A DNA stretch of 34,738 bases from a virus. This document shows, one piece after another, positions 2,490 to 28,690 of this stretch. Within the stretch, counting starts at the first letter, position 1, and every line of letters starts with the position of its first letter. A program made the position numbers and the translations under genes. Location of the stretch: positions 1-34,738 of IMG/VR virus record IMGVR_UViG_3300032087_003911. One strand, 5' to 3'. The notes beneath the pieces are model-generated. The model was not told the DNA's origin and searched no databases. It saw only the letters and a program-made list of their open reading frames with translations.

Positions 2490-2833
2490 ATCAGCGTGTA
2501 TTTTTGACCTGTATCAGTACCTTCATGTGTGTACTTGTTTGTATTAAGTGTATGCCTATTAGATGTACTAGAAGTACAATAAACTTTATCTCTGTATAGT
2601 AATTGAGAACCTCTTTTTATCTCTATTGTATACATTTGGTCTGCTGAGAGTAAAGTAAAGGCACAATAAACGTTTAGGAAGCTATCATCGACAATCGATC
2701 TGGCATTGCTAATCGTCTCTGTCCTTTTAGTTCCTTCTTGTGTTAAGACAATAACTAAATCACTCGCAGTTATAAGATATCTAGGTATTATCCTGAACAC
2801 TTGACTATCTGTCGTTGGTTCAAGTCGTATCAT
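2486..2833 (-). CDS. Small structural-operon protein, unknown function
   Basis: 115 residues, no recognised domain. The pattern (SDLVIVLTQEG, then MYTIEIKRGSQLLYRDKVYCT) suggests a small beta-sandwich, and similar proteins occur next to portal or fibre genes in Bacteroidetes phages. It is the first gene of the portal operon and starts 6 nt after the late-promoter-like element at 2840-2866, so it may be translated from a leaderless mRNA. Its stop overlaps the portal start by 4 nt (ATGA). It could be a head-completion or fibre-linked protein; nothing visible decides between these. Confidence 0.6.
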   Translation of the reverse strand: MIRLEPTTDSQVFRIIPRYLITASDLVIVLTQEGTKRTETISNARSIVDDSFLNVYCAFTLLSADQMYTIEIKRGSQLLYRDKVYCTSSTSNRHTLNTNKYTHEGTDTGQKYTLI

Positions 2834-3532: not shown

Positions 3533-4480
3533 TTAATTAACAGCGTTAGTGATACCATAAGTCACGATATCTTCTACCACTCCATATTGAACTCCTGCAG
3601 TATAACGCATTACAAATCTTACGTTTTGGTCTCCTAGAGTAGCTGCAGTATCAATAACCTGAACGAGATTATGGTCTGAAAGCAATCCTGTACCAAAATA
3701 AAGGTTTGATTTAGTTGTAGAAATTGCAGTGTCATCTGCTAATCCATTAGCAACAAAGATTTTTACACCATCAAAAGAAAGTGATCCATTATTGTACCAC
3801 ATTGTTCCTTGATTGTTGAAACCTTGCGCTCCTAATCCTGATGCACCATATCCACCTAATTGTCTGATGTATGCTCTAGCAATGTTCTGAGAAACATAGA
3901 TATGTAAGTCTTCTTTAGTATAAAGAGAAGAAGGAATTGCATCTACAATTTTACCAAGCTCAGTAATTACATTTGATGCAGTAACTGTAGTTCCTGTCAC
4001 CTCGTTAGCTGCAGGCAAATCTGCATCATTAGCTAATTTAGTAGAGAACCCATCATAATCGTCATTTCCTGAAGTACCTGACCAAATTGAAGTTTCAGTA
4101 GCAGCAGCTACTTTATCAGCCATGTAACCAATTAGATAGTCAGTGAATGTTTTTGGAGCTGACTCATGTGCGCTAAAGCCCATTTGCATCGCCTCCCAAT
4201 TGTTTTTAAACTCATCCTTACAAAGTTGAGCATTTACTTGTAATCTCTTTGGTTCAAGGATTCTTTCCTTCAATGTCACATCTCCTACTGCAGTAAAGTC
4301 GCATGATGCTCCTTTTACTAAAGAGTTTGTGTCAATTCTACCAATTACACTTTTAAATTTTACGTTAGGCATAACTGTAATACCTCCTGCAGAGATAGTG
4401 TTTGCCTCTAATAAACTAGCAGAGATATATTTACCTGCGTGTTCTCCTGCGTAACTTACGCCAGTGTCTGTTAAAGCCAT
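3533..4480 (-). CDS. Major capsid protein
   Basis: 315 residues, typical of an HK97-fold coat protein. The N-terminus (MALTDTGVSYAGEHAGKYISASLLEANTIS split over residues 1-30) leads to VMPNVKFKSVIGRI. The middle holds an acidic E-loop-like stretch and a long helix (YLIGYMADKVAAATETSIW, the spine-helix position), and the C-terminal part has the P/A-domain-like DLHIYVSQNIARAYIRQL and FDGVKIFVANGLADD. It follows an acidic scaffold-like gene by 6 nt, and the protease lies further upstream in the same operon. The start context is an A-run without Shine-Dalgarno, as usual in Bacteroidetes. Confidence 0.8.
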   Translation of the reverse strand: MALTDTGVSYAGEHAGKYISASLLEANTISAGGITVMPNVKFKSVIGRIDTNSLVKGASCDFTAVGDVTLKERILEPKRLQVNAQLCKDEFKNNWEAMQMGFSAHESAPKTFTDYLIGYMADKVAAATETSIWSGTSGNDDYDGFSTKLANDADLPAANEVTGTTVTASNVITELGKIVDAIPSSLYTKEDLHIYVSQNIARAYIRQLGGYGASGLGAQGFNNQGTMWYNNGSLSFDGVKIFVANGLADDTAISTTKSNLYFGTGLLSDHNLVQVIDTAATLGDQNVRFVMRYTAGVQYGVVEDIVTYGITNAVN

Positions 4481-4486
4481 TTTTTA

Positions 4487-4903
4487 CTAATTGTTGTTAT
4501 TTAATCGATTAAAAATTCTATCAAGTCTCGTTTGAGGTGCTTGCTGTGAATAAAGGTGAGCTTGAACCTTTTCTGAGACATTCTCAGGACTATGAGTCAT
4601 TGGTTCAGTTTCTACCTCTTGAGAAGATAGCTCCTCTGGAACTGACATATCTTCTTCCTTATAAGACATTAGTTTCTCTACCATAGCACGAACTTCTGCA
4701 AGCTCTTCTTTAGTAGCGTATCCTAACTCTTCTTTTTCTTCTTCAATCACTTCTTCAGGTGATCCAGGTTCTTCAGCTAACTCTTCAACCTCTTCAGATG
4801 AAGCTTCAACTTTTACCTCTTCTTCTTGAACTTCTATATCCTTGACCTCATCAGAGGAAAGAAGCACGTTCTTTAGTTTTTCTACGATTTCTGTAGCTTT
4901 CAT
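4487..4903 (-). CDS. Acidic scaffold-like protein
   Basis: 138 residues, dominated by Glu from about residue 18 to 75 (repeated EEV/EEL/EEE stretches), then a predicted coiled coil (ATKEELAEVRAMVEKLMSYKEE) and a basic, Asn-rich tail (TRLDRIFNRLNNNN). An acidic, helical protein directly in front of the coat gene, and in an operon with a protease, is what a capsid scaffold looks like: it templates procapsid assembly and is then removed by the protease. The short basic C-terminus could be the coat-binding end. The leader between 4904 and 4948 is AT-rich and lacks the late promoter element. Confidence 0.65.
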   Translation of the reverse strand: MKATEIVEKLKNVLLSSDEVKDIEVQEEEVKVEASSEEVEELAEEPGSPEEVIEEEKEELGYATKEELAEVRAMVEKLMSYKEEDMSVPEELSSQEVETEPMTHSPENVSEKVQAHLYSQQAPQTRLDRIFNRLNNNN

Positions 4904-4948
4904 AAAACAAATTTTAAATATTACTGATTAATGTATTTTTGTTGCATT

Positions 4949-5398: not shown

Positions 5399-5622
5399 TA
5401 TTGTCTTAAATTATCTCCTTTCTCATGCAACAATACACCTCCATCTTCTAGAAGAATGTGTTCAGTAACTATAGAAGCTTGAGTAGCTCCTACTCCCTGA
5501 CTTCTAAATTCACCATCACAGCAGTCTACATGATATGTATTGTTTTTACATAGACAACCCCTTCTTTTGTTTTGTGGGGAAGGGATTGAATCTCTGTAAA
5601 ATCTTCTTAAAAACTTCCTCAT
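5398..5622 (-). CDS. Small Cys-rich protein of the head operon, unknown
   Basis: 74 residues: a very basic N-terminus (MRKFLRRFYRD), then a Cys cluster GCLCKNNTYHVDCCDG (four Cys within 13 residues), then QGVGATQ and an acidic tail. The same CLC-TY-CCDG pattern is familiar from small genes between head genes of Bacteroidetes phages, but I know no function for it. The Cys set could bind metal or form disulfides. The start overlaps the end of the protease gene by 4 nt. Confidence 0.5.
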   Translation of the reverse strand: MRKFLRRFYRDSIPSPQNKRRGCLCKNNTYHVDCCDGEFRSQGVGATQASIVTEHILLEDGGVLLHEKGDNLRQ

Positions 5623-6665
5623 TGTTTAGGTACGCAGTTAGGTACTTTTCTACCATTCTTATTTTTAAAGCCTATCATCTCATAGCCTTCTTGGCATGGA
5701 TTTACATCCAGAGCTAATTCATCTAAACCTTTTAGCTTAGACTCTACCCAATTCTTCATGCTCTTTCCACCCCATAGTAAATAAGAGATAGTACCACATG
5801 CTTCAGGTTTACCTGGATCGTAATAAGCCTCTGCTCTGCTGAGGTAGCTATAGATTCTTTTCAAAGTTGGTAGAGTGAACTTCTCACCTCTAGCCAATTG
5901 TTGTCCACGAACTTTACCTACTTGTGTTGCGCACTTATTACCAAGTTCTTCATTTCGTTTAATCCCCAACTTGGCATTATTCCTAGCACTTTCAGGGTAG
6001 CCACCATAAGACTCCATTTCCACCTCTTCTAGAGCAGCTAGAGCTTCTTCTAGTTCGATTTGCGCAGAGAACTCTCTAAAGCACTCATCACACTCCTCTG
6101 TGCATTCTTCGCACTCGCCATCAGATTTTAATGACAACTTCTCGCTCTTATCTATGAAATACCCTTCAATGCTAAATCCTTTTATATCGCCATTTCTAGC
6201 TTTTTGCTTTATCTCTTCGTTTTCTGTCTTAACAGTAATCATCCAAGTTCCCTCAGACAAATCATAACCATATAAAGCAGACTTATCTGTTTTAGAATCT
6301 TCTATGATCCAGGATTCTACGACAGTCATGTCCTCAAGCATTTCACCTTGATGTTCGTAAGTTGAATTTTTCTGATTATTCTTTTTCAAGAATAGTTCTG
6401 ATGCTTTTCTAACAGTTTCTTCGCTAAAGAATATGTAATAATCCTCTTCCTCAGTAGCTCCTTGTCGATATATCTTTTGATTAGGAATTAAAGCAGGACC
6501 CATGAGTATCCCCTTTTCCTTGTCTACTTCTGTCAGAGTTATTCTCTTTTGCTCAGATAGAAAAACAAAGTTCTCTTTTATGGCAGGATTTTCTACTACG
6601 CTAATAGCTTCGATTCCTGCTTCTTCTAAATCTTCGTCTATAATAAGCTCTATGATATTATCCAT
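5619..6665 (-). CDS. Prohead serine protease, XkdF-like, with C-terminal extensions
   Basis: 348 residues. Residues 20-170 carry the XkdF/Peptidase_S78_2 pattern: ISVVENPAIKENFVFL, then ILMGPALIPNQKIYR, STYEHQGE (His105, putative catalytic), VESWIIED, EGTWMITVK and IKGFSIEGYF (Ser165, putative nucleophile). It should cleave scaffold and coat proteins during maturation. After the protease come a C-x2-C-x3-C-x2-C knot (Cys185, 188, 192, 195), a YPESARNNAKLGIKRNEELG module followed by VGKVRGQQLA and a GGKSMKNW motif (a module often fused to phage head proteins), and a CQEGYEMIGFK / GRKVPNCVPK tail. It is the first gene of the head operon and starts 6 nt after the late element at 6672-6698. Confidence 0.75.
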   Translation of the reverse strand: MDNIIELIIDEDLEEAGIEAISVVENPAIKENFVFLSEQKRITLTEVDKEKGILMGPALIPNQKIYRQGATEEEDYYIFFSEETVRKASELFLKKNNQKNSTYEHQGEMLEDMTVVESWIIEDSKTDKSALYGYDLSEGTWMITVKTENEEIKQKARNGDIKGFSIEGYFIDKSEKLSLKSDGECEECTEECDECFREFSAQIELEEALAALEEVEMESYGGYPESARNNAKLGIKRNEELGNKCATQVGKVRGQQLARGEKFTLPTLKRIYSYLSRAEAYYDPGKPEACGTISYLLWGGKSMKNWVESKLKGLDELALDVNPCQEGYEMIGFKNKNGRKVPNCVPKQ

Positions 6666-6671
6666 AATACC

Positions 6672-6698
6672 ATAACTGAAAAAGTGGAATCTGTTTTA
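6672..6698 (-). promoter_or_regulatory. Late-promoter-like element, copy B
   Basis: Minus strand TAAAACA (6698-6692), 13 nt, CAGTTAT (6678-6672), then 6 nt to the ATG of the protease gene. The first three bases of box 1 are the TAA stop codon of the tape-measure gene, so promoter and stop share sequence. No terminator separates the tail and head operons here. Confidence 0.6.
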
Positions 6699-9098
6699 AA
6701 TACCTGATGAACTCACTGTACTTCTCTCTAGTTCTTGAGCAGAATTTACTTCTGACAATACCACCTGTGCTTTTAATGGTGCTTGTTCCTTTGAAGCAAT
6801 AGCAGAAGCTAATTGATTCACAGGACTAGCTCCTACTATGTTGAATGATGGCAATTGAGCTACTGCAGGAGCAGAAGAAGTACTTCCACCTGCACTACTA
6901 CTAGCTTTAGTTAGAGAAGCTATCTCTGCCTTTGCTTTCTTTCTAGCTGCTATAATAGAAGCTATTGTAGTTGCTATTGTTAGAGCCATAAGAGGAATCC
7001 CTGCAGGACCAAGTTGAGCCAAGAATCCACCTTGAGATGCTAAGGTGTCACCAACACCTTTAGCAGCGTTAGCACCCATCTGACTCATTAATAATGCACC
7101 TTGTTGCGCACTTAATTTACCCATAAGAACTAATTGCTGTACAGCTAGTTTTTGAGTAAGTATATGGTCTTGTATCTTAAACTTCTGTTTGACAGCAAAC
7201 ATGTTAGCTTCCATCATTTGAGTATTCACAAACTCAGCAAGACCTATTATCTTTTTGACTGTAAACAAATCTCTTTCTGCTTTGATTCGCTTAACCTGTA
7301 ACTCATTTTCTTTTGCATCTAACCTATCAAGACTTGATTTCTTTTCCTCTTCAGTCATTGATGTACTTGCATTAATCTCATCTCTTTCTCTATTGATTAA
7401 AGCAACCTGTCTTTGAAATCTAGATTGTCCCATTGAATCAAATTCATCTAGCAGACTAGTGAATTGAGTCATTATTTGAGCAACATTAGATGTGAGTTGT
7501 TTTAGATTCTCTAGCTCTAATCTTTCTTGTTCTTTAAGCTCATCTCTTCCTGCTTTTAAGGCTTTCTTAGTGCTTGATTTTATGAGTTTGATTCTTTCTT
7601 CCTCTGCTTTCTCTTCCTTCTTTAAAACCTCAGCTAAATGCTTCGCATGACGTTCTGCTTTAGCCTTATTTATCATTACATCATAAGCCTGGATCAAAGC
7701 CATTCTTTTCTCTTGATAGTCTTTTTCACCCCTAAACAACTCATCAAAAGTCTTTAATTGATTCTCTTTCTCTCTTTCTAGCCTTTGGTCTTCAGTTTCA
7801 TCTTCTGACTTGTTTATTCTTTCCTGTAGTTTTAGTAGGAATGCTAATCTTTTCTTCTCAAGGTCTTCTTGGTCTTTTAATGCTTTTTTGTTTGTGTCCC
7901 TGCTCTTTTCTTCAATATCTTGAATCTCTCTATTTAATTGAACTATTCTTGTTAGTTTAGGATTTCTAGCATCAACAAGATTATTTATTTGACCATCTAT
8001 TTTTTCAATCTTACTTCTTAAGTCTGCTTCTTCTTGTATGGTAGCTGAATTAACAGCTCTATAAAGTTCAATATCAAGACCTCTCTCAATGACTTGTTTT
8101 CTGTATTCATCTTGATTAAGAGCTGCTACTTTGCCTAACTGCTTTTCTACTTCTACTTGCTCCTCTTGAAGTTTCTTAACATTCTCTAAAGCTTCTTTAT
8201 CCTGTTCGTCTAAATCAGATTGAAGTTCTTTTAGCTTTAACTTGTTCCTAAGCAGTGTTATAAGTTCTTCTTCAGATATTCTTTGTTCTTTGTAAGAATC
8301 TAATATATCATCCTCTAAAATACCATAAGCTTTTATTGTCCTTATAATACTATCATCTATTTTTTGTCTACTAGAATCAATAGTACCTATAACTCTTTCT
8401 AGATTAGCTATCTGTGAAGCTCTATCAAAATCAAAGTCATCTAAAGCCTCTTTAGCTTCTGTTGTTTTTTGAGCAAAGGCTTCGAGTAGTGTTATAATTA
8501 ATTGGAAGGCGATAATAATACCCATTGGTCCCATCATCTGAGTACCTAGCTGTCTAAATGCAGCTGTAACTTTACCCATTCCTTTAATACTCTCTTTCTG
8601 TTTTGCTACAAGAGTGATAAATAAACTAGATAATTGAGAAAGGTTATTCGCAACACCTCTAATACCATAGTTAGCATCAGATATCGTTCTACCAAATTCA
8701 GTTAATGTAGCACCTGCAAGACCTGTGTTGGATGATTGTTGACCTAAAGCTCTAACAAATCCTAAAGAAGAGCCTGTAAGCTCTTCATATTGCTTATCAA
8801 GAACAGCTAACTTCTTAATAGTTAAATCATGTTGGTCTCTGGAGACAGCACTTGTTTTAGCTAATTTGACTAGATTTCTTGCATAATCCTCTATCCTTTG
8901 AGCAGTAATACCAAATTTTTGATTGAGCTGACGTTGAGCTTTATCTAATTTAGCTAATTCAGTTTCAAAATCGCCTATCTTTACTTTAGCACCATCTACT
9001 GCTCTTTCGAGTTGTACGATTCCATTATCATCAACAGATACGCTGATTAATATATTCTTAGGAACAGCTTGCGCTACTTTTATTCTTGGTTTCGCCAT
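6696..9098 (-). CDS. Tape measure protein
   Basis: 800 residues, the longest gene. Long, charged, helical stretches (about 15-120, 225-420 and 430-640, rich in E, K, Q, R, L) predict coiled coils. Hydrophobic segments lie near 188-210 (GPMGIIIAFQLIITLLEAFA) and near 705-725 (GIPLMALTIATTIASIIAA), as in tape measures that insert into the host membrane on ejection. By the usual rule of about 1.5 A per residue the tail would be near 120 nm. The end is Ser/Ala-rich (STSSAPAVAQLPSFNIVG). It follows the tail-tip genes in the tail operon. The start overlaps a 48-codon gene by 19 nt. Confidence 0.85.
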   Translation of the reverse strand: MAKPRIKVAQAVPKNILISVSVDDNGIVQLERAVDGAKVKIGDFETELAKLDKAQRQLNQKFGITAQRIEDYARNLVKLAKTSAVSRDQHDLTIKKLAVLDKQYEELTGSSLGFVRALGQQSSNTGLAGATLTEFGRTISDANYGIRGVANNLSQLSSLFITLVAKQKESIKGMGKVTAAFRQLGTQMMGPMGIIIAFQLIITLLEAFAQKTTEAKEALDDFDFDRASQIANLERVIGTIDSSRQKIDDSIIRTIKAYGILEDDILDSYKEQRISEEELITLLRNKLKLKELQSDLDEQDKEALENVKKLQEEQVEVEKQLGKVAALNQDEYRKQVIERGLDIELYRAVNSATIQEEADLRSKIEKIDGQINNLVDARNPKLTRIVQLNREIQDIEEKSRDTNKKALKDQEDLEKKRLAFLLKLQERINKSEDETEDQRLEREKENQLKTFDELFRGEKDYQEKRMALIQAYDVMINKAKAERHAKHLAEVLKKEEKAEEERIKLIKSSTKKALKAGRDELKEQERLELENLKQLTSNVAQIMTQFTSLLDEFDSMGQSRFQRQVALINRERDEINASTSMTEEEKKSSLDRLDAKENELQVKRIKAERDLFTVKKIIGLAEFVNTQMMEANMFAVKQKFKIQDHILTQKLAVQQLVLMGKLSAQQGALLMSQMGANAAKGVGDTLASQGGFLAQLGPAGIPLMALTIATTIASIIAARKKAKAEIASLTKASSSAGGSTSSAPAVAQLPSFNIVGASPVNQLASAIASKEQAPLKAQVVLSEVNSAQELERSTVSSSGI

Positions 9099-9226: not shown

Positions 9227-11276
9227 AACTATTAATTAATTCTAATGTTGTTTTACCATCTCTTAAACTTGCCTTCATAGAATTTATTCTGAAATACTTG
9301 TCTTTGTATAGTATCTTATGATATAACTTAATTTGTGTAAGTTGTGTTAGTGGCAGAACCAGCTCTAGCTTGATTAATCTACTCTTCTTGTCAAATATGT
9401 TTTCTATGTAGCTCTGGTAGAATCTCTTGAATAGAGTATCTACACCTGCAGGAGTGTCTGTAGCAGGATCAGCATCATATTCACTGAACTCATTAAACTC
9501 TGCATTGAAATGTATATTCTTAGTAGAGGTTTTTGTTTGTGAGTTTAGTGGTATATTAATATTACCATTATAGCCTGTGTGACCTGTTCTGTCTATATAA
9601 GAAATAATAAAACCTGCTGTCACATTTTCTACAAAGAATAGTAATGGTTTTTCTTTTATAGGTTTCTCTTCTCTGTCTACTGAATAACCCCAAGTTATGC
9701 CTGTAACATTTGAGAAGTCATAAGCATCAATTAGTCGCTCAAACTTCATGTGACTGAATGGTAGTTCTAGCTTAAATATATCTCCATCTATGTTTACTCC
9801 ATCAGCAGCTTTATATTCTACTTCACCCCATCTGAATTTATTAGTACTAACCTCTTCAAAGTGTTGTTTAGCTAATATCGTTTCTGATCCATTATACTCA
9901 AAGTCTATCTCCTTAAATGGAAGAGCTACTGCAACTTCATGTGAATCTGAATCAACATACTTATTAATGTCAATGACATCAGAAGAGTAGTACTCTTGTA
10001 ATGGAGTAACTTGTATTTTACCATCGTCTTGTACATAAGCAACCAAATTAAACATTCTAAATAATCCTGATAAGAACTCAATAACCTTCATCTTAGGAAG
10101 ATTATCTTTAGGGTTAAAGAAGAATGAAGCGTTATAAGTAGAGTTAAAAACAGAGAAAGTATCTGTAGCTACACCTTGACCATCTGTGTAAGTAGTACTA
10201 AAGCCTAATTGACTAAACGTTATGTCTTCTTCATAAGTATTTATTTCTATACTCAAGACATCAGAAGAAACAGCACTAATAGCTTCAAGAGTATTTAAGT
10301 TATTTGAGATGCCTTTGTATTCTGTAACAACTACATTGTTCTTTTTGACAAGAACATCAACTATCTTACCTCTAGAACCTGATGCAATATTTATAATAGG
10401 AGTGAATGTAGCTGTTTGAGCTACTGAAACATCTCCATTGGATAAAGAACCTCTGGAAGGTATTCCTAAAGTATTGGTTGAGGTTGCAGTATCCATTTCA
10501 ACAGAGTAACCACCTCCTGATACTAGTTTAGTGCCTTTAGCGTTCCTGTGACACCACATATACAATTTTTGGACATCTTCATTAGAATCCTTAAAAAAGC
10601 TGTCTGAAGCGAACTCTACACCTGTGTATTCATTCTCTATTGCAGTTATAAGTTTAGATAAACTGACTGCATATTTTAATTGCAGTAATTTAACACCTTG
10701 CTTAGTTGTAGAATCATGATATATGTTTCCAGAATTCTCTACTGTTTGGTTTGTGTCGTAGAAAATTCTTTGCTCAGGAGTTATTAATGGAATAGTGAAT
10801 CCTGCGTAGTCACCTGTTTGGATAGATGGGTCTTGTGTAAGCATGCCTAAGAGCCTTGTTTGGTCATACTCTAGGTCAAGATCCAGGTCTGATAATTCGT
10901 GCAGGTAGTCATCCCCTATTAAGTCTTTAAGCACAACTGTTTTACCAAAGAAAGTAACCTTGTATGAATGTGGTTTATTGTTCTTTAGCTCTACTGAATT
11001 TAGTGCGATTCTTCCTTTTTTATAAGGTAAGTTGCTTATCTCTATGTTAGCATCAACTCTTATCCTAGCATCAAAGCCATCTGTGATATTGTAGTTGTAA
11101 TAATGCTTAAATATCTTGTTGTTGGTTCTAGAAGCAGGTAATGTAAACTGATAAGTGAAAGCTGTAAAAACCTTACTCAAATCCTTTAGGTTTTTTAAGT
11201 TTTCATTTATGGTGATATTATCCCCTTTGAATAAATCAGCCTTAGTACCATCTATGTATAATTGAATCTCTCTCAC
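9219..11276 (-). CDS. Putative tail-tip / baseplate hub protein
   Basis: 685 residues. The N-terminal 120 residues (IQLYIDGTKADLFKGD, TAFTYQFTLPASRTN.., KHYYNYNITDGF, KKGRIALNSVEL) are the part I recognise from large tail genes near the tape measure in Bacteroidetes siphoviruses. A central region reads MKVIEFLSGLFRMFNLVAYVQDDGKIQVTPL, like the hub domain of tail-associated proteins, and the C-terminus ends in IKLYHKILYKDKYFRI..TTLELINSYD. Length and position fit a distal-tail or hub protein under the tape measure. No lysozyme or peptidase motif is visible. The start overlaps the upstream stop by one base. Confidence 0.55.
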   Translation of the reverse strand: MREIQLYIDGTKADLFKGDNITINENLKNLKDLSKVFTAFTYQFTLPASRTNNKIFKHYYNYNITDGFDARIRVDANIEISNLPYKKGRIALNSVELKNNKPHSYKVTFFGKTVVLKDLIGDDYLHELSDLDLDLEYDQTRLLGMLTQDPSIQTGDYAGFTIPLITPEQRIFYDTNQTVENSGNIYHDSTTKQGVKLLQLKYAVSLSKLITAIENEYTGVEFASDSFFKDSNEDVQKLYMWCHRNAKGTKLVSGGGYSVEMDTATSTNTLGIPSRGSLSNGDVSVAQTATFTPIINIASGSRGKIVDVLVKKNNVVVTEYKGISNNLNTLEAISAVSSDVLSIEINTYEEDITFSQLGFSTTYTDGQGVATDTFSVFNSTYNASFFFNPKDNLPKMKVIEFLSGLFRMFNLVAYVQDDGKIQVTPLQEYYSSDVIDINKYVDSDSHEVAVALPFKEIDFEYNGSETILAKQHFEEVSTNKFRWGEVEYKAADGVNIDGDIFKLELPFSHMKFERLIDAYDFSNVTGITWGYSVDREEKPIKEKPLLFFVENVTAGFIISYIDRTGHTGYNGNINIPLNSQTKTSTKNIHFNAEFNEFSEYDADPATDTPAGVDTLFKRFYQSYIENIFDKKSRLIKLELVLPLTQLTQIKLYHKILYKDKYFRINSMKASLRDGKTTLELINSYD

Positions 11277-13344: not shown

Positions 13345-13586
13345 TTATTTATCATTTTTATTTCTAATTCTGTTTTCTCTTTCTCAAAAGACAGCCATGT
13401 CAAACACTGACTTGCAGGGAGTCTTTCAACTTCTTCAAATTTTGTGACATCTCCTGATGCAAGTTGATAAAGCGATGAGTACCATCCCCACTTTCTGCTA
13501 AAGTTTCCTTGAGCGTTGTATTGCCCTTCATCTGTTCCTCCAAATAACTCATCATACAATCCAACAAATCCCTTCCTAAATGATAA
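13341..13586 (-). CDS. Frameshift extension of the tail-assembly chaperone (-1 frame)
   Basis: This 81-codon frame is open from the T9 slippery run to the stop at 13341 and lies in the -1 frame relative to the 13400-14101 gene. It has no ATG near its beginning; the first plausible independent start is a TTG at 13559. Its product (after LSFRKGFVGLYDELFGG) contains FSRKWGWYSSLYQLASGD and LPASQCLTWLSFEKEK, a segment I know from small genes next to tail genes in Bacteroidetes phages. Slipping at codons 171-172 gives a fusion of about 253 residues. This matches the G/GT arrangement of siphovirus tail-assembly chaperones. Confidence 0.65.
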   Translation of the reverse strand, partial: LSFRKGFVGLYDELFGGTDEGQYNAQGNFSRKWGWYSSLYQLASGDVTKFEEVERLPASQCLTWLSFEKEKTELEIKMINK

Positions 13587-14101
13587 AAAAAAACCATAGC
13601 ACCTAAAGCGATATTTACAGGAGCATCTCTCATTATATTAGAGTACTTGTGAGAACCTTCATATTCTTCTATTTGGTAAAACCCCTTTCTACTATTTGTG
13701 ATAGGTCTATACAAAACAGCCATTGCCTTATGCATAGTACTCCAATCTACAATGAACGATTCCAGATCAAGGAACTCACCAAAACTCATATCTTCTAACT
13801 TAGGTATGAAACCAAAAGTTATAGTCTTACCATTGGCATCAGTCATATCAAACTTCTGAACTAACCTATGCTCTGTGTCAAATAATGCATTTACCTTAAA
13901 TACAATATCACTAAACAGCTTTGCAGGTACTCCTTTGACATCCTTAAGGGATGCCTCACAGAATATCTCTACTGCTTTCATATTCAAGAAATGTCTATCC
14001 TCTGCATCTTTGTTCTGCTCAACAATACTCAAATACTTTTGGTATTTGTGTAGTTGAATAGCACTCAACTCCATTGGGAGATTCAATGTAAACTTCACCA
14101 T
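13400..14101 (-). CDS. Tail-assembly chaperone (short form, G-like)
   Basis: 233 residues. An acidic/helical protein (LHKYQKYLSIVEQNKDAEDR, FLNMKAVEIFCEASLKDV, PKLEDMSFGEFLDLESFIVDW) with DAPVNIALGAMVFFYHLG near residue 160-175, where the mRNA has nine consecutive Us. The frame continues 61 codons beyond that point, so both frames are coding over 13400-13586. It is the first gene of the tail operon, and its ATG stands 6 nt after the late element at 14108-14134. Chaperones of this type wrap the tape measure during tail assembly. The role is inferred from frameshift architecture and position more than from sequence similarity. Confidence 0.6.
   Translation of the reverse strand: MVKFTLNLPMELSAIQLHKYQKYLSIVEQNKDAEDRHFLNMKAVEIFCEASLKDVKGVPAKLFSDIVFKVNALFDTEHRLVQKFDMTDANGKTITFGFIPKLEDMSFGEFLDLESFIVDWSTMHKAMAVLYRPITNSRKGFYQIEEYEGSHKYSNIMRDAPVNIALGAMVFFYHLGRDLLDCMMSYLEEQMKGNTTLKETLAESGDGTHRFINLHQEMSQNLKKLKDSLQVSV
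13585..13593 (-). promoter_or_regulatory. T9 slippery site for -1 ribosomal frameshifting
   Basis: In the zero frame the minus strand reads GTT TTT TTT TAT (V-F-F-Y, residues 170-173), so a T_TTT_TTT heptamer is in register. After a -1 slip the next codons are TTA TCA TTT AGG and the frame stays open to 13341. A homopolymer of nine is otherwise risky in a coding region, and its placement exactly at the junction of two overlapping frames is the key evidence. I did not identify a clear downstream pseudoknot. Confidence 0.6.
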
Positions 14102-14107: not shown

Positions 14108-14134
14108 ATAACTGCTATTTTTTATTTTGTATTA
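14108..14134 (-). promoter_or_regulatory. Late-promoter-like element, copy D
   Basis: Minus strand TAATACA (14134-14128), 13 nt, CAGTTAT (14114-14108), then 6 nt to the ATG at 14101. Spacing between boxes and to the ATG is the same as in copies A and B; box 1 differs by one base. It would start the tail operon. Confidence 0.55.
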
Positions 14135-14291
14135 TGCCCTAGAAAATGAAACAAACTCTAGAAAGTCAGTTACTATTGTGTAGCCAATTTACTCAGCGAG
14201 CCTAAAGCGAGCTGTGATGTGCTGCAGCTAGACTCTAAGACAGAGAGCCATAACTATATTCTTTTTTTATTTATCTACTTACCATAGCTAT

Positions 14292-14324
14292 ATCATATGT
14301 GTTATCATTTCTAATCATATGTGT
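14292..14324. repeat. Pair of 11-bp direct repeats spaced 22 bp
   Basis: ATCATATGTGT occurs at 14292-14302 and again at 14314-14324. The 22-bp period is two turns of B-DNA, so both copies face the same side of the helix. This is a common layout for operator sites. Each copy also contains CATATG, a perfect inverted repeat. The binding protein is unknown. Confidence 0.5.
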
Positions 14325-14484
14325 GGAGTTTTAAATTCGAAATCGTTTGATTCTGTCTAAATTGGTTATTTAAGATGGCTACTATTGAATTTACGTTGAT
14401 TTTTCTGTTTAGCGCTGAGAAGCATTTTAAAGCGTTCTAAGAGACTTTCACAGTTCTGTGGTGTATAGTGTTGGATCCTGTGAG

Positions 14485-14523
14485 AAGTGCGCTTAAATCG
14501 CATCCTAGATACCTTCAGCGTTC
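14485..14523. repeat. Dispersed repeat block, copy 1
   Basis: AAGTGCGCTTAAA (14485-14497) is followed by CTAGATACCTTCAGCGTTCT (14504-14523). Both elements recur near 15872-15906 in the opposite order, so the cargo unit at 14594-15719 lies between two versions of the same pair of elements. Confidence 0.5.
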
Positions 14524-14533
14524 TGATTTGGGC

Positions 14534-14562
14534 AAAAAAAAGCCCATGCTATAAACATGGGC
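14534..14562 (-). terminator. Strong terminator of the GP88-like operon
   Basis: On the minus strand a perfect GCCCATG / CATGGGC stem with a 7-base loop is followed by eight Ts. It ends the two-gene unit 15719-14594 and isolates it from the tail operon. Confidence 0.85.
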
Positions 14563-14593
14563 AAACCTAAAAATGAAATGATTAATAAAAAAT

Positions 14594-15409
14594 CTAAACT
14601 AAAATATACTTGTTTGAGTGGTTAAAAAATTCGCTTGTCTCAGGGATAATAAAACCTGCTTCAATACCTTCTTTTAATTGTGCCTGATATTTTGCTTTTG
14701 TCTTAGAACCTTTGAATTTGAGCGCAAGTATTTTACTATCCTGCAAAACCATCTCAAGGTCGTTCTCATCGCCTGACACGATACGCATACCTGCCCACGT
14801 GTCAATATCACCTGACTTAATTTTTTCTATTACTGCAGGCTCAAAAACTACGCTGACATTTATACCCATGTTAATAGCTTCAATGATATCTTTGAAATTC
14901 TCACCACTATAAGACAAGGTTAAACGATAGTTTGAACCCATGTATTTTTTAACGCGCTGAAATGACTTTGTATAATCGTAAAACGTTAGATGCTTGAACT
15001 CTGTTAAAATATCAATACCAAAACTTGAGCGTATATGTTGTACAAAATCTACATCACTAGTGCCATTTAAACGAATGGCAATTTTAGATTTATTTTTCTT
15101 TGCTAGCTTGTCAGCGTTGCTCAATTCCTTAAGTAATTTAGTCAGAAACAAAACCCTATCTTGAATAAAGAAATTAGAACGATTAACGCGCGCGCTTCCC
15201 ACGTCTTTTTTATGCTCTGCGTGTCCTGTGTTAACAAGGCATAAAAGCCTGCAAGCATCAGTTGCATAGGGGCATAAATCGCGACCTTTGTAGTTCTGAG
15301 TTGATGCACTCAAATAAAGTATTTTAGTCTTGAGATGATTCTTTTTTGTTTTGGCATTGTTTAAGCCATCACTCAATAAATATTTTTTTATGGTGTAGTG
15401 TTTTTTCAT
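14594..15409 (-). CDS. GP88-like protein with C-x6-C-x3-C motif
   Basis: 271 residues. The pattern STQNYKGRDLCPYATDACRLLC (Cys46, 53, 57 region), then LVNTGHAEHKKDVGSARVNRSNFF and later KIAIRLNGTSDVDFV matches what I recall of the 'Gene product 88' family (Pfam GP88), first described in mycobacteriophages, whose function is unknown to me. The Cys triplet near an NTG and an R-x2-R motif suggests a metal or Fe-S site, but the spacing is not the radical-SAM C-x3-C-x2-C. The C-terminal half looks like an alpha/beta barrel (YRLTLSYSGENF, NVSVVFEPAVIEK, GMRIVSGDENDLE). It shares a unit with a 101-residue gene 4 nt upstream, has its own terminator and is not part of the late operons, so it is probably cargo. 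Confidence 0.6.
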   Translation of the reverse strand: MKKHYTIKKYLLSDGLNNAKTKKNHLKTKILYLSASTQNYKGRDLCPYATDACRLLCLVNTGHAEHKKDVGSARVNRSNFFIQDRVLFLTKLLKELSNADKLAKKNKSKIAIRLNGTSDVDFVQHIRSSFGIDILTEFKHLTFYDYTKSFQRVKKYMGSNYRLTLSYSGENFKDIIEAINMGINVSVVFEPAVIEKIKSGDIDTWAGMRIVSGDENDLEMVLQDSKILALKFKGSKTKAKYQAQLKEGIEAGFIIPETSEFFNHSNKYILV

Positions 15410-15719: not shown

Positions 15720-15871
15720 AATATGAATTTTAAATGTTTAGTGCTTGCAAGATATAGAACCTAAAGCAAAAAAACAAATTTCAAAGATCCATTTTCTACC
15801 AATAAAAAAAAATGTTAAAATTCTTGCATAATCCAAAAATCCATCTCCTGCCACTTCTCAGATTTTTAATG

Positions 15872-15906
15872 CTAGGATACCTTGAAGGTTCTAAAGTGCG
15901 CTTAAA
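15872..15906. repeat. Dispersed repeat block, copy 2
   Basis: CTAGGATACCTTGAAGGTTCT (about 15871-15892) resembles 14504-14523, and AAGTGCGCTTAAA (15894-15906) is identical to 14485-14497. The order of the two elements is swapped between the copies. A CGCCTTAAAATGCG word follows directly and resembles 14421-14438 and 18181-18199. Confidence 0.5.
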
Positions 15907-15972
15907 ACGCCTTAAAATGCGAAATAGAAAAAAAACAGTTTTTTCCTTGCATATGTAAAATTTTTTATGTAG

Positions 15973-16063
15973 ACACGCGCACACGCACACACACGCACGC
16001 ACACGCACGCACACACGCGCCCAGGCGCACACGCACACGCGCGTACACGCGCACACATGCATG
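15973..16063. repeat. 91-bp alternating CA/CG tract (Z-DNA-prone)
   Basis: Strict purine-pyrimidine alternation, almost only CA, CG and a few TG steps, runs from 15973 to 16020 and from about 16025 to 16063, broken only around 16021-16024. It is far richer in G+C than everything around it. Such tracts adopt left-handed Z-DNA under negative supercoiling. It lies between two divergent transcription units, where supercoiling would be highest. Confidence 0.85.
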
Positions 16064-16075
16064 GATCGCTAAAGC

Positions 16076-16120
16076 CTCCATTGAGTCTATTAGGTCTATT
16101 AGGTCTATTGAGTCTATTGA
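16076..16120. repeat. 9-bp tandem repeat, unit GTCTATTRR
   Basis: Four consecutive units (16085-16120: GTCTATTAG twice, GTCTATTGA twice) follow a degenerate first unit CTCCATTGA. The core CTATTGA also occurs in the 23-bp repeats at 18226-18295 on the far side of the accessory genes. Confidence 0.75.
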
Positions 16121-16185
16121 GTTCATATTTGGTAGTTAAAGAAATTTATCTTATCATTGTATTCTAAACATTTAAAACATTTATC

Positions 16186-16473
16186 ATGCACATTGAACAT
16201 TTATTGAGAGAGTCTGATGGAATACAAATGACTTACCTCTCTATCGTTACTCCAACTGAAAAGAAGTTTGTAAACGAAGAGCAGATTTACCCAACTGCGT
16301 TTAAAGCGATTGGTTCTGACAAAGTAATTGAGGTCATCATTGAGCCTGCTGTATTAGCTAAGATTATGACTAACCACACATCTCTGAATTACGATATGAT
16401 ATTGAGCGCACTCAGAGTTCAGTTCAGTCACTACAAACTAGTACTATTGCGTTTAACAGATACTTCAATATAA
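16186..16473 (+). CDS. Accessory protein, first of a tandem paralogue pair
   Basis: 95 residues, unknown function. Its C-terminal half (IIEPAVLAKIMTNHTSLNYDMILSALR, then KLVLLRLTDTSI) aligns with that of the next gene, and the DNA shares an exact 17-base stretch, TATTGCGTTTAACAGAT. The leader before the ATG, with TTAAAACATTTATCATG, is also repeated before the next gene. It is the first gene of the plus-strand operon, which stays apart from the minus-strand late genes. Probably a small early or host-takeover protein, by analogy only. Confidence 0.65.
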   Translation: MHIEHLLRESDGIQMTYLSIVTPTEKKFVNEEQIYPTAFKAIGSDKVIEVIIEPAVLAKIMTNHTSLNYDMILSALRVQFSHYKLVLLRLTDTSI

Positions 16474-16491
16474 ACACTTAAAACAATTATC

Positions 16492-16788
16492 ATGAGAATT
16501 AGATTTACCAATCAGGTCGTTAAAGAAAGGGTTTTCTTTTACCTCGAAATCACAACCAATGTTGAAGGAGTTGTGACAACTGCTGACTATGAATTAAACG
16601 TTGTAGACATCACTTCGTCTGATGTCGCTACCATCTTAATGCAACCTTCTGAGTTTGCTAGAATGATGGAAGAACATCCCTACCTCAACTTTCAAATGGT
16701 ATACGAGGTATTCAGACTCTTCTACTGCAGAAGAAAGTCAGTGGTATTGCGTTTAACAGATTCTGTTCATACTGAAGACCTAGTATAA
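16492..16788 (+). CDS. Accessory protein, second of a tandem paralogue pair
   Basis: 98 residues. Shared features with the preceding protein: MQPSEFARMMEEHPYLNFQMVYEVFR aligns with the IIEPAVLAKIM..LNYDMILSALR segment, and VVLRLTDS aligns with VLLRLTDT. The N-terminal halves differ much more, so the two copies are old or under different selection. The leader (TTAAAACAATTATCATG) matches the upstream one at 21 of 23 positions over the aligned stretch, which shows that the duplication included the translation start region. Function unknown. Confidence 0.65.
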   Translation: MRIRFTNQVVKERVFFYLEITTNVEGVVTTADYELNVVDITSSDVATILMQPSEFARMMEEHPYLNFQMVYEVFRLFYCRRKSVVLRLTDSVHTEDLV

Positions 16789-16795
16789 CTGACGA

Positions 16796-16828
16796 GACTT
16801 CAATAGTCGAAACCTGCTTCAGGCAGGT
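16796..16828 (+). other. Two small hairpins in the intercistronic space
   Basis: GACT-TCAAT-AGTC (16796-16808) and ACCTGC-TTCAG-GCAGGT (16812-16828) lie between the paralogue pair and the next gene. No T-run follows, so termination is unlikely. They may protect mRNA ends or act as a processing site. Confidence 0.4.
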
Positions 16829-16856
16829 CTTATACAAACAAATAAATCTTATTAAA

Positions 16857-17492
16857 ATGACAAATCAAGAATTCACTCAGCACATTACAGAAAGCGCAGA
16901 CTTCGCTAGTTTAGTTGCAAGACCTCTCCCTGAGCATGACATGTTCATCTCTGTTTATTGGGGTAAAGACCATGAGAACAAGAGTTTCCTCTTAGGAGTC
17001 AACTTTTGTATGGGTGTGAATGTAGCACCTAACGACCCAAACCTAACCACCTTCCTTCACCACATGCAAGACACTTTGCTTGCAGATGAGAAGCTAACCA
17101 AGTATGTCAACCTATGGCACTTAGGTAAAGGTCAACCTACTATTGATTCTATAGCTCACGCTTGTGTTCTTTACCCTCAGTTTGAGGAGCTATTCAATAC
17201 CCCAATTGAATCTACAAGCAACAGAGCAAGTGACAGAATAGAATACTACGCAAGCGTTTATGATTGGGTTAAAAGAAACAATTATTGGGAACAAGCATCA
17301 GACGTTCTAGGAGACGATATAAGCGACCTTGATGGGTATAGCCCTGATGAGGCTGTAGATGCTATTCAGGCTGTCTATAACGAGAAACTAGATGGAGATG
17401 GTAAAGTCATTGTATCTAAGGCTCGTGACCCTCAAAAAGAGAAGGATGGCTACCCTATTGAAGTCTTATGGATAAACGTTGCTAAAGGATAA
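16857..17492 (+). CDS. Accessory protein, 211 residues, unknown
   Basis: An acidic protein with no recognised family. Visible features are an aromatic beta-rich part (HDMFISVYWGKDHENKSFLL, then GVNFCMGVNVAPNDP), a helical middle (TTFLHHMQDTLLADEKLTKYV) and SDRIEYYASVYDWVKRNNYWEQASDVLGDD, followed by an acidic stretch (DISDLDGYSPDEAVDAIQAVY). The first 100 residues resemble an immunity- or anti-restriction-type small acidic domain only in composition. Its ATG follows a CTTATTAAA leader like those of the other plus-strand genes. Confidence 0.6.
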   Translation: MTNQEFTQHITESADFASLVARPLPEHDMFISVYWGKDHENKSFLLGVNFCMGVNVAPNDPNLTTFLHHMQDTLLADEKLTKYVNLWHLGKGQPTIDSIAHACVLYPQFEELFNTPIESTSNRASDRIEYYASVYDWVKRNNYWEQASDVLGDDISDLDGYSPDEAVDAIQAVYNEKLDGDGKVIVSKARDPQKEKDGYPIEVLWINVAKG

Positions 17493-17514
17493 TTTAACTC
17501 AAAATAGAATAGAT

Positions 17515-17985
17515 ATGAAAGTTACTATAACAAAATTAATCACTATCAGAAATAAGAGGTCAGAGCTACTCGCTCTCAGAAACAAGTGTAAAGACCACTA
17601 CTACTACTGCAAATACAATCAGGTAAATGAGCCTGATGACTTCGATGATAAAGACAATGAGATGTATGCAGAAATCGTCAGACACAAAATCAAGGCAGGC
17701 TACATGACGATACTAGGCTCTGAGGATTGGTGTTGTCAGAACAACAGACTACATGCCACTCCATTAGAAATGATAGAAGAGGTGGTTACCTACCTGACTG
17801 AAGAGATTAGACACTTGGAGACTCACAACCTAGCTAACCTCATTAAAGAACTCATACAAGAGAGACTTGATGATGATGAGATGGATGTTGATTTATGCTT
17901 AGATGACTTCCTGAAGGAGTACTATAGTATTCTGTCTGATACAGAAAGAGCATTGATTGAATGTGTAGAATACTTGATGTCATGA
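17515..17985 (+). CDS. Accessory protein, 156 residues, unknown
   Basis: The frame is open from a TTG at 17479, but the ATG at 17515 is the better start: it avoids overlap with the preceding gene and has an A-rich upstream stretch. The product is helical and charged, with a basic N-terminal helix (TKLITIRNKRSELLALRNK), a Tyr/Cys cluster (CKDHYYYCKYNQ), GSEDWCCQNNRLHATPLEMIEEV and an acidic C-terminus (DDDEMDVDLCLDDFLKEYY). No catalytic motif is visible. It overlaps the next gene by 4 nt (ATGA). Confidence 0.6.
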   Translation: MKVTITKLITIRNKRSELLALRNKCKDHYYYCKYNQVNEPDDFDDKDNEMYAEIVRHKIKAGYMTILGSEDWCCQNNRLHATPLEMIEEVVTYLTEEIRHLETHNLANLIKELIQERLDDDEMDVDLCLDDFLKEYYSILSDTERALIECVEYLMS

Positions 17986-18155
17986 ATATCTACAAAGTAA
18001 TCAGAGAAGGCACTTACGAGTTTAAGGGCAAAAAGAAGCGATATAAGGGGTACTTGACTGCCCCTGATATGCAGACTGCCATGAGCATGGCGATAAGTCG
18101 TTACAAGGGCTTAGATAACATCAGAAAGGTAACAATGATTAAAGCACTCGATTGA
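17982..18155 (+). CDS. Small basic protein ending the plus-strand operon
   Basis: 57 residues from the ATG at 17982, which overlaps the preceding stop in an ATGA. An upstream in-frame ATG at 17961 would add seven residues but forces a 25-nt overlap. The sequence has YKVIREGTYEFKGKKKRYKGYL and a helix MQTAMSMAISRYKGLDN, like a small protein with a beta hairpin and one helix. The stop codon lies within the loop of the terminator at 18141-18168. Function unknown. Confidence 0.55.
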   Translation: MNIYKVIREGTYEFKGKKKRYKGYLTAPDMQTAMSMAISRYKGLDNIRKVTMIKALD

Positions 18156-18345: not shown

Positions 18346-18630
18346 CTAACTGAAATCCTTGAATAGAATCCCATTAGCCTTAACACTAAGTAACGTGTTA
18401 ATATTTACAAATCTGTGCTGTTGAATCTGAATGTCGAAGAACTGAAGAAGACCTTTATCTGCAGGATTGAAATTGTGTCCTACACCTTTAACGCCTTTCT
18501 TAACTCCTACTCTACCATTCATGACTCTAACATCTCCATTCTTTTTCACAAATGTGATAGTACAAATCTGACCATCACTAATTTCATTTAATACTTTTTC
18601 TTTTGAGTAACCTTTTACAATTGTTTTCAT
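18346..18630 (-). CDS. WYL_2 / DUF2693-like Sm-fold protein
   Basis: 94 residues. The run ICTITFVKKNGDVRVMNGR, then VGVKKGVKGVGHNFNPADKGL, LQFFDI and HRFVNINTLLSVKANG is the pattern of the DUF2693 family (Pfam WYL_2, a small Sm-like SH3-type beta-barrel) found in many phages and some mobile elements. It may bind nucleic acid or small ligands, but no function is established to my knowledge. It is a stand-alone unit on the strand opposite to its neighbours, with its own consensus Bacteroidetes promoter (18652-18683) and terminator, so it is probably expressed early by host RNA polymerase. Confidence 0.75.
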   Translation of the reverse strand: MKTIVKGYSKEKVLNEISDGQICTITFVKKNGDVRVMNGRVGVKKGVKGVGHNFNPADKGLLQFFDIQIQQHRFVNINTLLSVKANGILFKDFS

Positions 18631-18651: not shown

Positions 18652-18683
18652 CAAATATAGTCTTTAGATTTCACTTATGCAAA
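18652..18683 (-). promoter_or_regulatory. Consensus Bacteroidetes promoter for the WYL_2-like gene
   Basis: Minus strand TTTG (18683-18680), 20 nt, TATATTTG (18659-18652), matching the TTTG / TAnnTTTG boxes of the Bacteroidetes housekeeping sigma factor. A start about 7 nt downstream would leave a leader of about 15 nt before the ATG at 18630. This is the clearest host-type promoter in the window and supports a Bacteroidetes host. Confidence 0.75.
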
Positions 18684-20718: not shown

Positions 20719-20915
20719 AAATATTTATAAATTTTCCAAATTGCATCTGAGGCTTCCTGAGCATTCTTGTAGACTCTAGTACCTCGTTTTATCTTGCCAT
20801 CCTTTTCAATTTCTATACCAAGCTTCTTACCAGAGACAGGATAGCAGTATATCTTATAGCCTTGAGCGAACACCCAAGACTGGATCATCAGCTCCTTTCT
20901 ATGAGCTTCTTTCAT
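20595..20915 (-). CDS. 106-residue protein overlapping TerS
   Basis: Sequence MKEAHRKELMIQSWVFAQGYKIYCYPVSGKKLGIEIEKDGK split over residues 1-41, then a NAQEASDAIWKIYKYLWEED helix. The first 70 residues look like a small, well-formed alpha/beta domain. The last 40 overlap the TerS N-terminus and are basic in both frames. It also overlaps the upstream DnaA-domain gene by 17 nt. Function unknown; both overlapping genes look real because each has a sensible composition in its own frame. Confidence 0.5.
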   Translation of the reverse strand: MKEAHRKELMIQSWVFAQGYKIYCYPVSGKKLGIEIEKDGKIKRGTRVYKNAQEASDAIWKIYKYLWEEDQKSINMSRRQMVEKTMAEKKAKLTKTNSQPEQLRLL

Positions 20916-21441
20916 TCATACGTCTTTGTGTTTTTATAACTTTAGAATATAGATTCATTTTATCTAATAGAACTTCTACCTCTTCAGGTGTTAAGTCTTC
21001 AAACAAGTTATTTATCTTTTCTTTTTCACATTTCATTGATACTATTTGCACAGAAAGTTCCTTTATCCTTTTTTCTTTCTTTGCTAGTTCAGAATACAAA
21101 TTAGATATACCTCTTTGGTAAAGAAGTAAATCCTCTTCATCAATATCATCTTCTAAAAATATCTTGAGTTCATCGTAAAGGTTTTTATAGATATCTTCTT
21201 TTAAAACATGATGCAATGTATTATTAAGAGCATGCAGAACTGTTGCATGTGTTTTACCCATATATCTACCCACCTTTTGATAACCATACTTTGTTTCATG
21301 ATAAGCTAAAGCATAAAACAAAACCCTTGCATTTATGTATTTCCTTTTTCTAGTCTTTTCATGAAGTTTTAAACCTAATCTTGATTCAATAATTTTTTGT
21401 ACTATTTCTAATTTCTTGTCTCTTTCAGATTTCGTATTCAT
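20899..21441 (-). CDS. DnaA C-terminal-domain-like DNA-binding protein
   Basis: 180 residues. Residues 35-78 (NARVLFYALAYHETKYGYQ.., then VGRYMGKTHATVLHALN) match the helix-turn-helix domain IV of DnaA, whose signature is G-x-DHSTV-HA; here the Asp is replaced by Thr. There is no AAA+ ATPase domain. The second half (80-180) is a charged coiled coil (LYSELAKKEKRIKELSVQI). It may bind the phage origin, recruit host replication proteins, or act with terminase, since it lies three genes before TerL. Similar stand-alone DnaA-domain proteins occur in phages of Bacteroidetes. Confidence 0.65.
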   Translation of the reverse strand: MNTKSERDKKLEIVQKIIESRLGLKLHEKTRKRKYINARVLFYALAYHETKYGYQKVGRYMGKTHATVLHALNNTLHHVLKEDIYKNLYDELKIFLEDDIDEEDLLLYQRGISNLYSELAKKEKRIKELSVQIVSMKCEKEKINNLFEDLTPEEVEVLLDKMNLYSKVIKTQRRMNERSS

Positions 21442-24044: not shown

Positions 24045-25336
24045 AACATTGATTTTAAAATATTAATACCAACAGCCTCTACTACATTAACAGTGACTGC
24101 ATTACCACACATTTTATAGCGTTGTGTATCACTTATAACTTCATTTTCAATTCCTTGTTTTGTCCAATTGTCAGGAAACCCTTGTAAACGCTCACACTCT
24201 ATTGGAGTTAGTCTTCTGACAGCACCTCTTTCATACAGCCTTAAACTATTGTGATGAGGCTCTAACAACGTAGGACTATCTTCTCTTGCTCTTTTATTAT
24301 ATATGTCAAGTGCTTTAACATCATCTTCAGATAGATTCTCTTTTTCTAAGAGTTCATTCAAGTTCTTACTGCCATACTTATATTTTATAACAGGCTGACC
24401 ACTTCCATCTTCTCTAGCTCTAGCAGGAATAGTTGGCGCGTTACCATCTTTTATCTCTCTGAACCCTCTACCATCTTTATGAGTTCTCCATGTACCTGAA
24501 ACAAGCACACCTTGATTTCCTGTAGTATCCACAGTGGGACTAGTGCTTTTACCTACACGACCTCTGGAGGTCTTTGATCCAGGATGGTCTAAACGAACAG
24601 CATCACCAATACTAGCCTCTTCATAGCCTTTGCTGTTGTTAGACTTAAATTTAATCTGCTTAGGCTGTTTGTAGTCTGTAGCAGACAAAGTAGTCATGAT
24701 ACCTTCAGGGTCATAGATAGCACCTCTTTGACCACCTTTATTAGTATCCCCTACTACTTTTATTTCAGAGTCATCTTTTCCATCGCCTTCTCTGATAGGA
24801 AATATTTCTCCTGTACTTCTGTCTCCAAGACATCCAACAAGATAGATTCTCTCTCTATTTTGGGGTAGAAACCACTTCGTATTAAGCAATTGCCATCCAA
24901 GTCTATAACCCCCAATGTTGGCAAACTCTTGCAGGATTGCTGCAAAGTCTGCCCTATTGTTTGTGCTGAATGTTCCTTTAACGTTTTCCCAGATAAAAAT
25001 ACTAGGTTTGAGTTCTTTGATAAGCCTAATTGCTTCTCCAATGAGTGAACTTCTCTCGCCATGTAAGCCTCCCCTTGCTCCTGCCAAACTAAAATCTTGG
25101 CAAGGACTTCCAAAAGTGATGATGTCGATTTTTGGCAATTCTGCTCCTCGAACATCTGTAACTGATCCGACATATTGTGAATTTTTAAAATTGTTCTGAT
25201 ACACTGAGATAGCATATGAATCTATCTCTGAGAAAAAGCATTGGTCAAACTCAAATCCAGCTCTCTCTAATCCTAGATGAAAACCACCAATGCCACTAAA
25301 TAAATCTAAGTAGTTATATTTTGTCATAGTCTTCAT
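24041..25336 (-). CDS. dcm: DNA (cytosine-5) methyltransferase
   Basis: 431 residues with all main motifs in order: I DLFSGIGG (11-18), IV GSPCQDFS (76-83, nucleophile Cys79), VI ENVKG (117-121), VIII QNRERIYLVG (159-168), IX RRLTPIECERLQGFPDNW (374-391) and X CGNAVTVNVVEAVG (420-433). The target-recognition region is about 170-370 and contains repeated SPT-x-T / PTI / MTTL loops of the type common in phage and bacterial Dcm enzymes. It methylates cytosine to protect phage DNA, with no clear cognate endonuclease. A start at the ATG at 25327 would reduce the overlap with the sigma-like gene. Confidence 0.9.
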   Translation of the reverse strand: MKTMTKYNYLDLFSGIGGFHLGLERAGFEFDQCFFSEIDSYAISVYQNNFKNSQYVGSVTDVRGAELPKIDIITFGSPCQDFSLAGARGGLHGERSSLIGEAIRLIKELKPSIFIWENVKGTFSTNNRADFAAILQEFANIGGYRLGWQLLNTKWFLPQNRERIYLVGCLGDRSTGEIFPIREGDGKDDSEIKVVGDTNKGGQRGAIYDPEGIMTTLSATDYKQPKQIKFKSNNSKGYEEASIGDAVRLDHPGSKTSRGRVGKSTSPTVDTTGNQGVLVSGTWRTHKDGRGFREIKDGNAPTIPARAREDGSGQPVIKYKYGSKNLNELLEKENLSEDDVKALDIYNKRAREDSPTLLEPHHNSLRLYERGAVRRLTPIECERLQGFPDNWTKQGIENEVISDTQRYKMCGNAVTVNVVEAVGINILKSML

Positions 25337-28582: not shown

Positions 28583-28608
28583 ATATCTGAATTTTTTAGC
28601 AAGTTAAT

Positions 28609-28639: not shown

Positions 28640-28690
28640 AATTTTAAACAAAAACAGATTTACGAATAAAAAAGTACTACTACTATAATG

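Follow-up and report, generated by a model that had tools for sequence, protein, structure and literature searches.

The window, a 34,738-base uncultured phage contig, carries the two-box element TAAWACA-N13-MAGTTAT in exactly four matches, all of them on the minus strand and all with 13 nt between the boxes (Table 1). Downstream, the starts of ORFs 2833, 6665, 14101 and 30555 follow at 6, 6, 6 and 18 nt, and our pattern search recovered each copy at the position given by an earlier sequence-only reading of this DNA. That reading had also placed every copy at the head of a late operon, and the genes found downstream, those for connector and portal, a head-protease-like protein, tail and lysis, bear this out. 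No exact match occurred in 100 dinucleotide shuffles, and the reversed pattern has none in the window. With up to two mismatches there are 11 matches as compared with 4.0 expected, an excess in which most sites beyond the exact four fall within coding sequence; with up to three there are 54 against 36.6, mostly chance, among which 4920-4946 is a real variant copy. This variant is also upstream of the major capsid candidate (3533-4480), placing it at the scaffold/capsid genes, and relatives have a copy before the same gene. As both the variant and the divergent copy at 14147-14173 belong to the class, the description of a four-copy element holds for the exact matches and falls short as a total. 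A GC-rich hairpin with a T run stands directly upstream of the copy at 2840-2866, and the copy at 6672-6698 extends into the end of the tape-measure-like ORF 6696-9098.

Table 1. Promoters, candidate RNA and associated genes in the window
Feature	Position	Strand	Remarks
Late promoter copy	2840-2866	minus	6 nt before ATG of ORF 2486-2833; conserved in 15 relatives
ORF, connector-like by position	2486-2833		portal (1260-2489) next
Variant late promoter copy (AACA, gap 14, AGTAAT)	4920-4946	minus	before ORF 4487-4903; predicted 10-nt leader
Late promoter copy	6672-6698	minus	6 nt before ATG of ORF 5619-6665 (head maturation protease-like)
Late promoter copy	14108-14134	minus	6 nt before ATG of ORF 13400-14101 (first gene of tail operon)
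Divergent copy, TGAAACA-N13-TCAGTTAC	14147-14173	plus	back to back with 14108-14134; among the 2-mismatch matches
Candidate non-coding RNA	14180-14269	plus	from divergent copy; 15-mer TAACTATATTCTTTT (14251-14265) shared with relatives' RNA
Host-type promoter, TTTG-N20-TATATTTG	18652-18683	minus	before ORF 18346-18630; contrast case
Protein with DnaA C-terminal DNA-binding domain	20899-21441	minus	180 aa; Pfam E 8.5e-9; replication cluster
ECF-type sigma factor, proposed reader of the element	25314-25883	minus	189 aa; regions 2 and 4, no region 3
Late promoter copy, lysis operon	30574-30600	minus	18 nt from ATG of ORF 30286-30555; predicted 12-nt leader

Several look-alikes were set aside, namely the 1-mismatch match at 9323-9349 and the matches at 10277, 31035, 32793 and 33120, all within coding sequence, and the site at 20936-20962 (ahead of ORF 20915 and upstream of the terminase genes), which is without a good first box. 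Unlike this last site, a copy before the packaging genes is present in some relatives and in phage P12024. The earlier claim that the replication, accessory and cargo genes have no copy in front of them also stands, with only weak look-alikes inside coding sequence found there.

The TAnnTTTG -7 box of Bacteroidota sigma A, found in the promoters of flavobacterial hosts, is in none of the late elements, and scans for the sigma-70 consensus and for terminators remained at chance level. Host-type TATATTTG boxes occur elsewhere in the window, both in the promoter listed in Table 1 and upstream of the replication gene cluster that includes the sigma gene. One at 28583-28700 (minus), with a hairpin and T run between it and ORF 28409-28582, is a possible early promoter with attenuator ahead of replication genes. 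A further one at 29071-29120 (plus) points away from the endolysin gene and precedes a block kept in relatives (GTAGCAGTAAATCTAC, TACCAAACTTC), possibly a second, early non-coding RNA. The window also holds a Gp88-family protein (14594-15409, minus; PF17338, E 9e-29), found in roughly half of the relatives, Val/Cys/Ala/Arg repeat-rich ORFs (15796-16126, minus; VCVCARVC...), which look like translated GT/CA-type repeat DNA and not like real genes, and five ORFs (16186-18155, plus) with homologs in 0/20 relatives, the first two of which (95 and 98 aa) look alike.

We fetched 18 related contigs (23-36 kb) and two Nonlabens phages, P12024S and P12024L, which by terminase are the nearest named relatives at 48% identity, and placed the orthologs of the window genes on them. 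From these relatives we infer that the host of the window phage is a flavobacterium. The two boxes recur upstream of the orthologs of ORFs 2833, 6665 and 14101, while the sequence between the boxes is far less conserved, and there are exactly 6 nt between the end of the GTTAW box and the ATG in 16/16, 18/20 and 17/20 genomes, respectively, the window included; genes inside the operons are without such a box. Spacing, which the earlier reading had held to be fixed at 13, is so within the window and varies by 1-2 nt in the relatives. Box 1 proves looser than the window copies suggest (AACA, TACA, AACG), C being its most informative position within an A-A-C core, with a gap of 14-16 to box 2; box 2 takes the form [A/G/C]GTTA[T/A], as AGTTAT or GGTTAT in the window group and CGTTA in P12024S/L. 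A weight matrix trained on the relatives only, the window being left out, ranked the four window sites top (17.3, 17.3, 17.3 and 16.4), followed by a site in antisense coding sequence at 15.3, and since the best site in 30 shuffles reached 17.9 the matrix by itself is not conclusive.

The pattern AAAACA-N15-17-CGTTA, run on P12024S/L without reference to the ATG, returned 13 sites, all with an ATG at 5 or 6 nt, and none when reversed. In part, these sites stand before other genes than in the window group (e.g. gp08, gp41, gp44 and gp45), indicating that the operon layout changed while the placement rule stayed. Furthermore, among 20 additional contigs picked solely for encoding the sigma-like protein described below, 19 have AACA-N14-17-GTTAW-N6-ATG, with 43 sites as opposed to 2 for the reversed pattern. 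Occurrence before the same operons in related phages, as the earlier reading would have it, is therefore seen in the fetched relatives and extends to these further contigs, giving conservation across about 40 contigs that are non-independent samples. The element was absent from the parts read of Riemerella phage RAP44 (41 kb) and Olleya phage Harreka_1 (26 kb); as these two negative controls are only distant relatives, read in part, sigma gene and promoter could simply be co-inherited.

Over 21 genomes, 64 box 2 copies lie at 6 nt from the ATG of an ORF and 0-2 at each of 3, 4, 5, 7 and 8 nt, with smaller peaks at 10-20 nt that include real short-leader promoters, and reversed boxes used as a control give a flat spectrum. 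The 6-nt arrangement is found before 83 distinct proteins in nine gene families, which, where nameable, are the terminase small subunit, head, connector and tail genes. Box 2 thereby occupies -12 to -7 from the ATG; leaderless genes have been described as recognizable by a -10 box in this place, some 12 bp ahead of the start codon (PMC3160421).

The same distance reappears at the divergent copy, which matches the consensus exactly in seven of the full relatives fetched and, in relatives, stands before a conserved structured RNA. The first base of this RNA lies 6 nt past box 2 in all 13 distinct sequences (5-8 nt allowed), and the RNA runs about 103-118 nt up to a conserved ATTCTTTT tail. Its outer stem, AGATAA[T/C]C...G[A/G]TTATC, contains one compensatory pair (U-A to C-G), its inner hairpin persists although the hairpin sequence differs between groups, and folding z-scores in three relatives are -1.95 to -3.22. 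The window version folds no better than shuffled sequence (z -0.03) and keeps the promoter position and the 15-nt piece of the tail at 14251-14265; a covariance model of the relatives' RNA reached the window weakly (E 0.21). Rfam returned no family for the window or for the corresponding stretches of three relatives, and a tRNA/tmRNA search found none. The candidate RNA is contained in the intergenic stretch 14174-14594 (plus) downstream of the divergent promoter, which is closed by a hairpin with a T run at 14542-14562 (minus). One relative (G010, L075) has an extra G-run stretch inserted between the back-to-back promoters that G009, otherwise very similar in this region, is without.

As box 2 recurs at exactly 6 nt with almost nothing at 4, 5, 7 or 8 nt, most late messages are predicted to begin right at the start codon, that is, to be leaderless. 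A start 6 nt past box 2 is backed by the first base of the structured RNA, which lies at that distance, and by the promoters with leaders, whose predicted +1 is an A; the predicted +1 is A at the capsid, lysis, fibre and RNA promoters. It is unlikely, yet the best surviving of the alternatives, that the promoter is rightly identified and its mRNAs are not leaderless, the transcript starting farther upstream or the 6 nt being a Kozak-like signal for translation initiation. Host biology lends this some weight, in that 87% of the predicted transcripts of F. johnsoniae have leaders longer than 10 nt and an A at -3 and -6 aids initiation there (PMC6847099), leaderless mRNAs make up 5.5% in F. psychrophilum (PMC9723704), and about 3.7% of the 5' UTRs of B. 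thetaiotaomicron are shorter than 10 nt (PMC7366714). Against it stand the 6-nt distance of box 2 also from a non-coding RNA, where there is no start codon, the absence of the box from operon-internal genes, and the position of box 2 at -12 to -7, which matches the leaderless signature. A comparison of the nucleotides at -3 and -6 between leaderless and other genes gave no decisive result, and a phage-encoded S21 ribosomal protein, a possible link to special translation, is absent.

The protein proposed to recognize the element is the product of ORF 25314-25883. The gene is situated in the replication cluster, a location that suits a factor made in the early or middle phase to activate the late genes. 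The protein matches PHROG 1740 (E 3.9e-7) and, over residues 26-173, the NCBIfam sigma70-ECF model TIGR02937 (E 5e-8), its 32.7 bits lying below the curated cut-off of 42.9, for which reason we label it ECF-type and do not assign it as a member; Pfam matches to regions 2 and 4 were weak and seen in few family members. By profile comparison a 17-sequence alignment of the sigma-like protein matches P12024S gp33, which carries a sigma-70 region 2 annotation, with a probability of 96.9%; this link comes from profile comparison only, tblastn of the window gene against the named phages giving no match. The predicted structure, of moderate confidence (pLDDT 70, pTM 0.42), has helical N-terminal and C-terminal parts with a low-confidence linker (78-105) between them, in line with the ECF architecture of two domains with regions 2 and 4, no region 3 and a size of about 20 kDa. 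Foldseek gives almost all of the top ranks to ECF sigma factors (best E 3e-4), in keeping with a shared fold; overall TM-scores reach only 0.3-0.4, as the arrangement of the two domains differs. A search of solved structures by sequence returned only unrelated HTH proteins, and no host genome or prophage with the sigma gene was found.

The sigma-like gene is present in 17 of the 18 fetched metagenomic relatives, the one without it being a fragment. ECF-type promoters follow a rule of an AAC core in the -35 box and about 16 bp to the -10, and the element conforms with its A-A-C core and gap of 14-16. The case that this protein reads the element is strong but indirect, since it draws on the shared occurrence of gene and element and on a footprint of two boxes such as ECF sigma factors have. 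Somewhat less probable still than transcripts with leaders is recognition of the late promoter by host polymerase with a host sigma factor, possibly a host ECF, and a phage activator at box 1, the phage sigma-like protein then having another role. Flavobacteria do possess ECF sigma factors of their own, the CGT -10 box of one ECF promoter class in F. psychrophilum (SM6; PMC9723704) resembles the CGTTA of P12024S/L, and a phage protein with a DnaA-type HTH domain is encoded in the window (20899-21441). Set against these are the persistence of the sigma-like gene in the relatives, the recovery of the element in 19/20 contigs picked by sigma, and the fit of both boxes to the two-part footprint of an ECF sigma factor.

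The element is almost certainly a promoter. Operators, too, typically come as spaced and nearly identical copies on one strand, of which there are four here, but an operator or another repeated regulatory site (repressor, replication or packaging signal) in place of a core promoter is very improbable, considering that the element is asymmetric and non-palindromic with a fixed orientation and distance to gene starts, that one copy follows a terminator-like hairpin and that another heads an RNA gene. A chance pattern spotted after the fact, for which the abundance of loose versions of the motif in AT-rich sequence (the 3-mismatch count) might speak, is refuted by the relatives, with the shuffles also speaking against it, as the earlier reading had anticipated in calling the pattern hard to explain by chance, and its probability is negligible.

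Joining what is directly seen, namely a conserved element at a constant position with respect to the ATG and the RNA and a sigma gene that occurs with it, we propose a model for late transcription in this phage. Early in infection, transcription would be served by host-type promoters, and the early region would yield the small ECF-type sigma factor. This factor may then bind the host core RNA polymerase and steer it to the late promoters, in which box 1 (core AAC, mostly AACA) would act as the -35 element and box 2 as the -10 element of a phage late-promoter class. Transcription would begin 6 nt past box 2, usually at an A. At the tail, head-protease and connector/portal operons this A would be the A of the ATG itself, giving leaderless late mRNAs that are presumably translated as such. 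Transcripts from the capsid and lysis promoters would keep a short leader, some 10-12 nt in length. The divergent copy would make the non-coding RNA, probably in the late phase as well. Judged from sequence and its conservation, it is probable that this class of late promoters is read by host polymerase equipped with the phage sigma factor and gives leaderless late starts. The proposal of a phage-specific late promoter that differs from the host TTTG/TAnnTTTG consensus is thus supported, given the conservation in relatives and the flat reversed-box control; the ECF-type sigma gene, the 6-nt distance to the ATG, the scaffold/capsid copy and the divergent copy that heads the RNA are additions to it.

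Late promoters of T4 consist of a single TATAAATA box, and we know of no leaderless rule for the late sigma systems of T4 or SPO1. The system proposed here differs from T4 gp55 and SPO1 gp28/gp34 in its two-domain ECF-type sigma factor and its separate -35 box. It is like them in that a phage gene would redirect host polymerase to phage-specific middle or late promoters, those proteins being phage sigma factors essential for late control (PMC9429907). To bacterial ECF sigma factors, such as that of the SM6 class of F. psychrophilum (PMC9723704), the protein is similar in its small size and its regions 2 and 4, and the promoters in the AAC core of the -35 box and, for P12024S/L, the CGTTA -10. 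Unlike those factors it is phage-encoded and would serve virion genes, with no anti-sigma gene noticed, and the -10 of the window group is A/G-GTTAT, unlike that of the CGT class. The position of the box relative to the ATG is that of leaderless genes in Actinobacteria and Deinococcus-Thermus (PMC3160421). There the resemblance ends, as an alternative phage sigma factor would be at work here, in phages related to those of Bacteroidota, where leaderless genes are rare. Leaderless late mRNAs are also described for Thermus phages. In Thermus phage P23-45 the late genes are likewise under phage-specific promoter features, its middle and late extended -10 promoters being read by the host holoenzyme (PMC7403470). 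Unlike here, the phage factors of P23-45 modify the host sigma A, and no phage ECF sigma is present.

Late gene control in Bacteroidota phages is little studied, and our literature search, which is incomplete, found no paper on a late promoter or late sigma factor of these phages. On balance we favor the view that a widespread marine group related to flavobacterial phages uses a private sigma factor and mostly leaderless late mRNAs, with a late structured RNA transcribed back to back. If true, these phages would couple late transcription to a mode of translation that their host, which is without Shine-Dalgarno initiation, rarely uses. If the model is right, it would provide a testable sigma-promoter pair, which an isolate, Nonlabens phage P12024S/L, also has, together with a natural collection of leaderless messages for virion genes in a phylum that lacks Shine-Dalgarno initiation and in which leaderless mRNAs make up about 4-6%. 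It would also allow late operons to be annotated straight from sequence in many uncultured marine phages.
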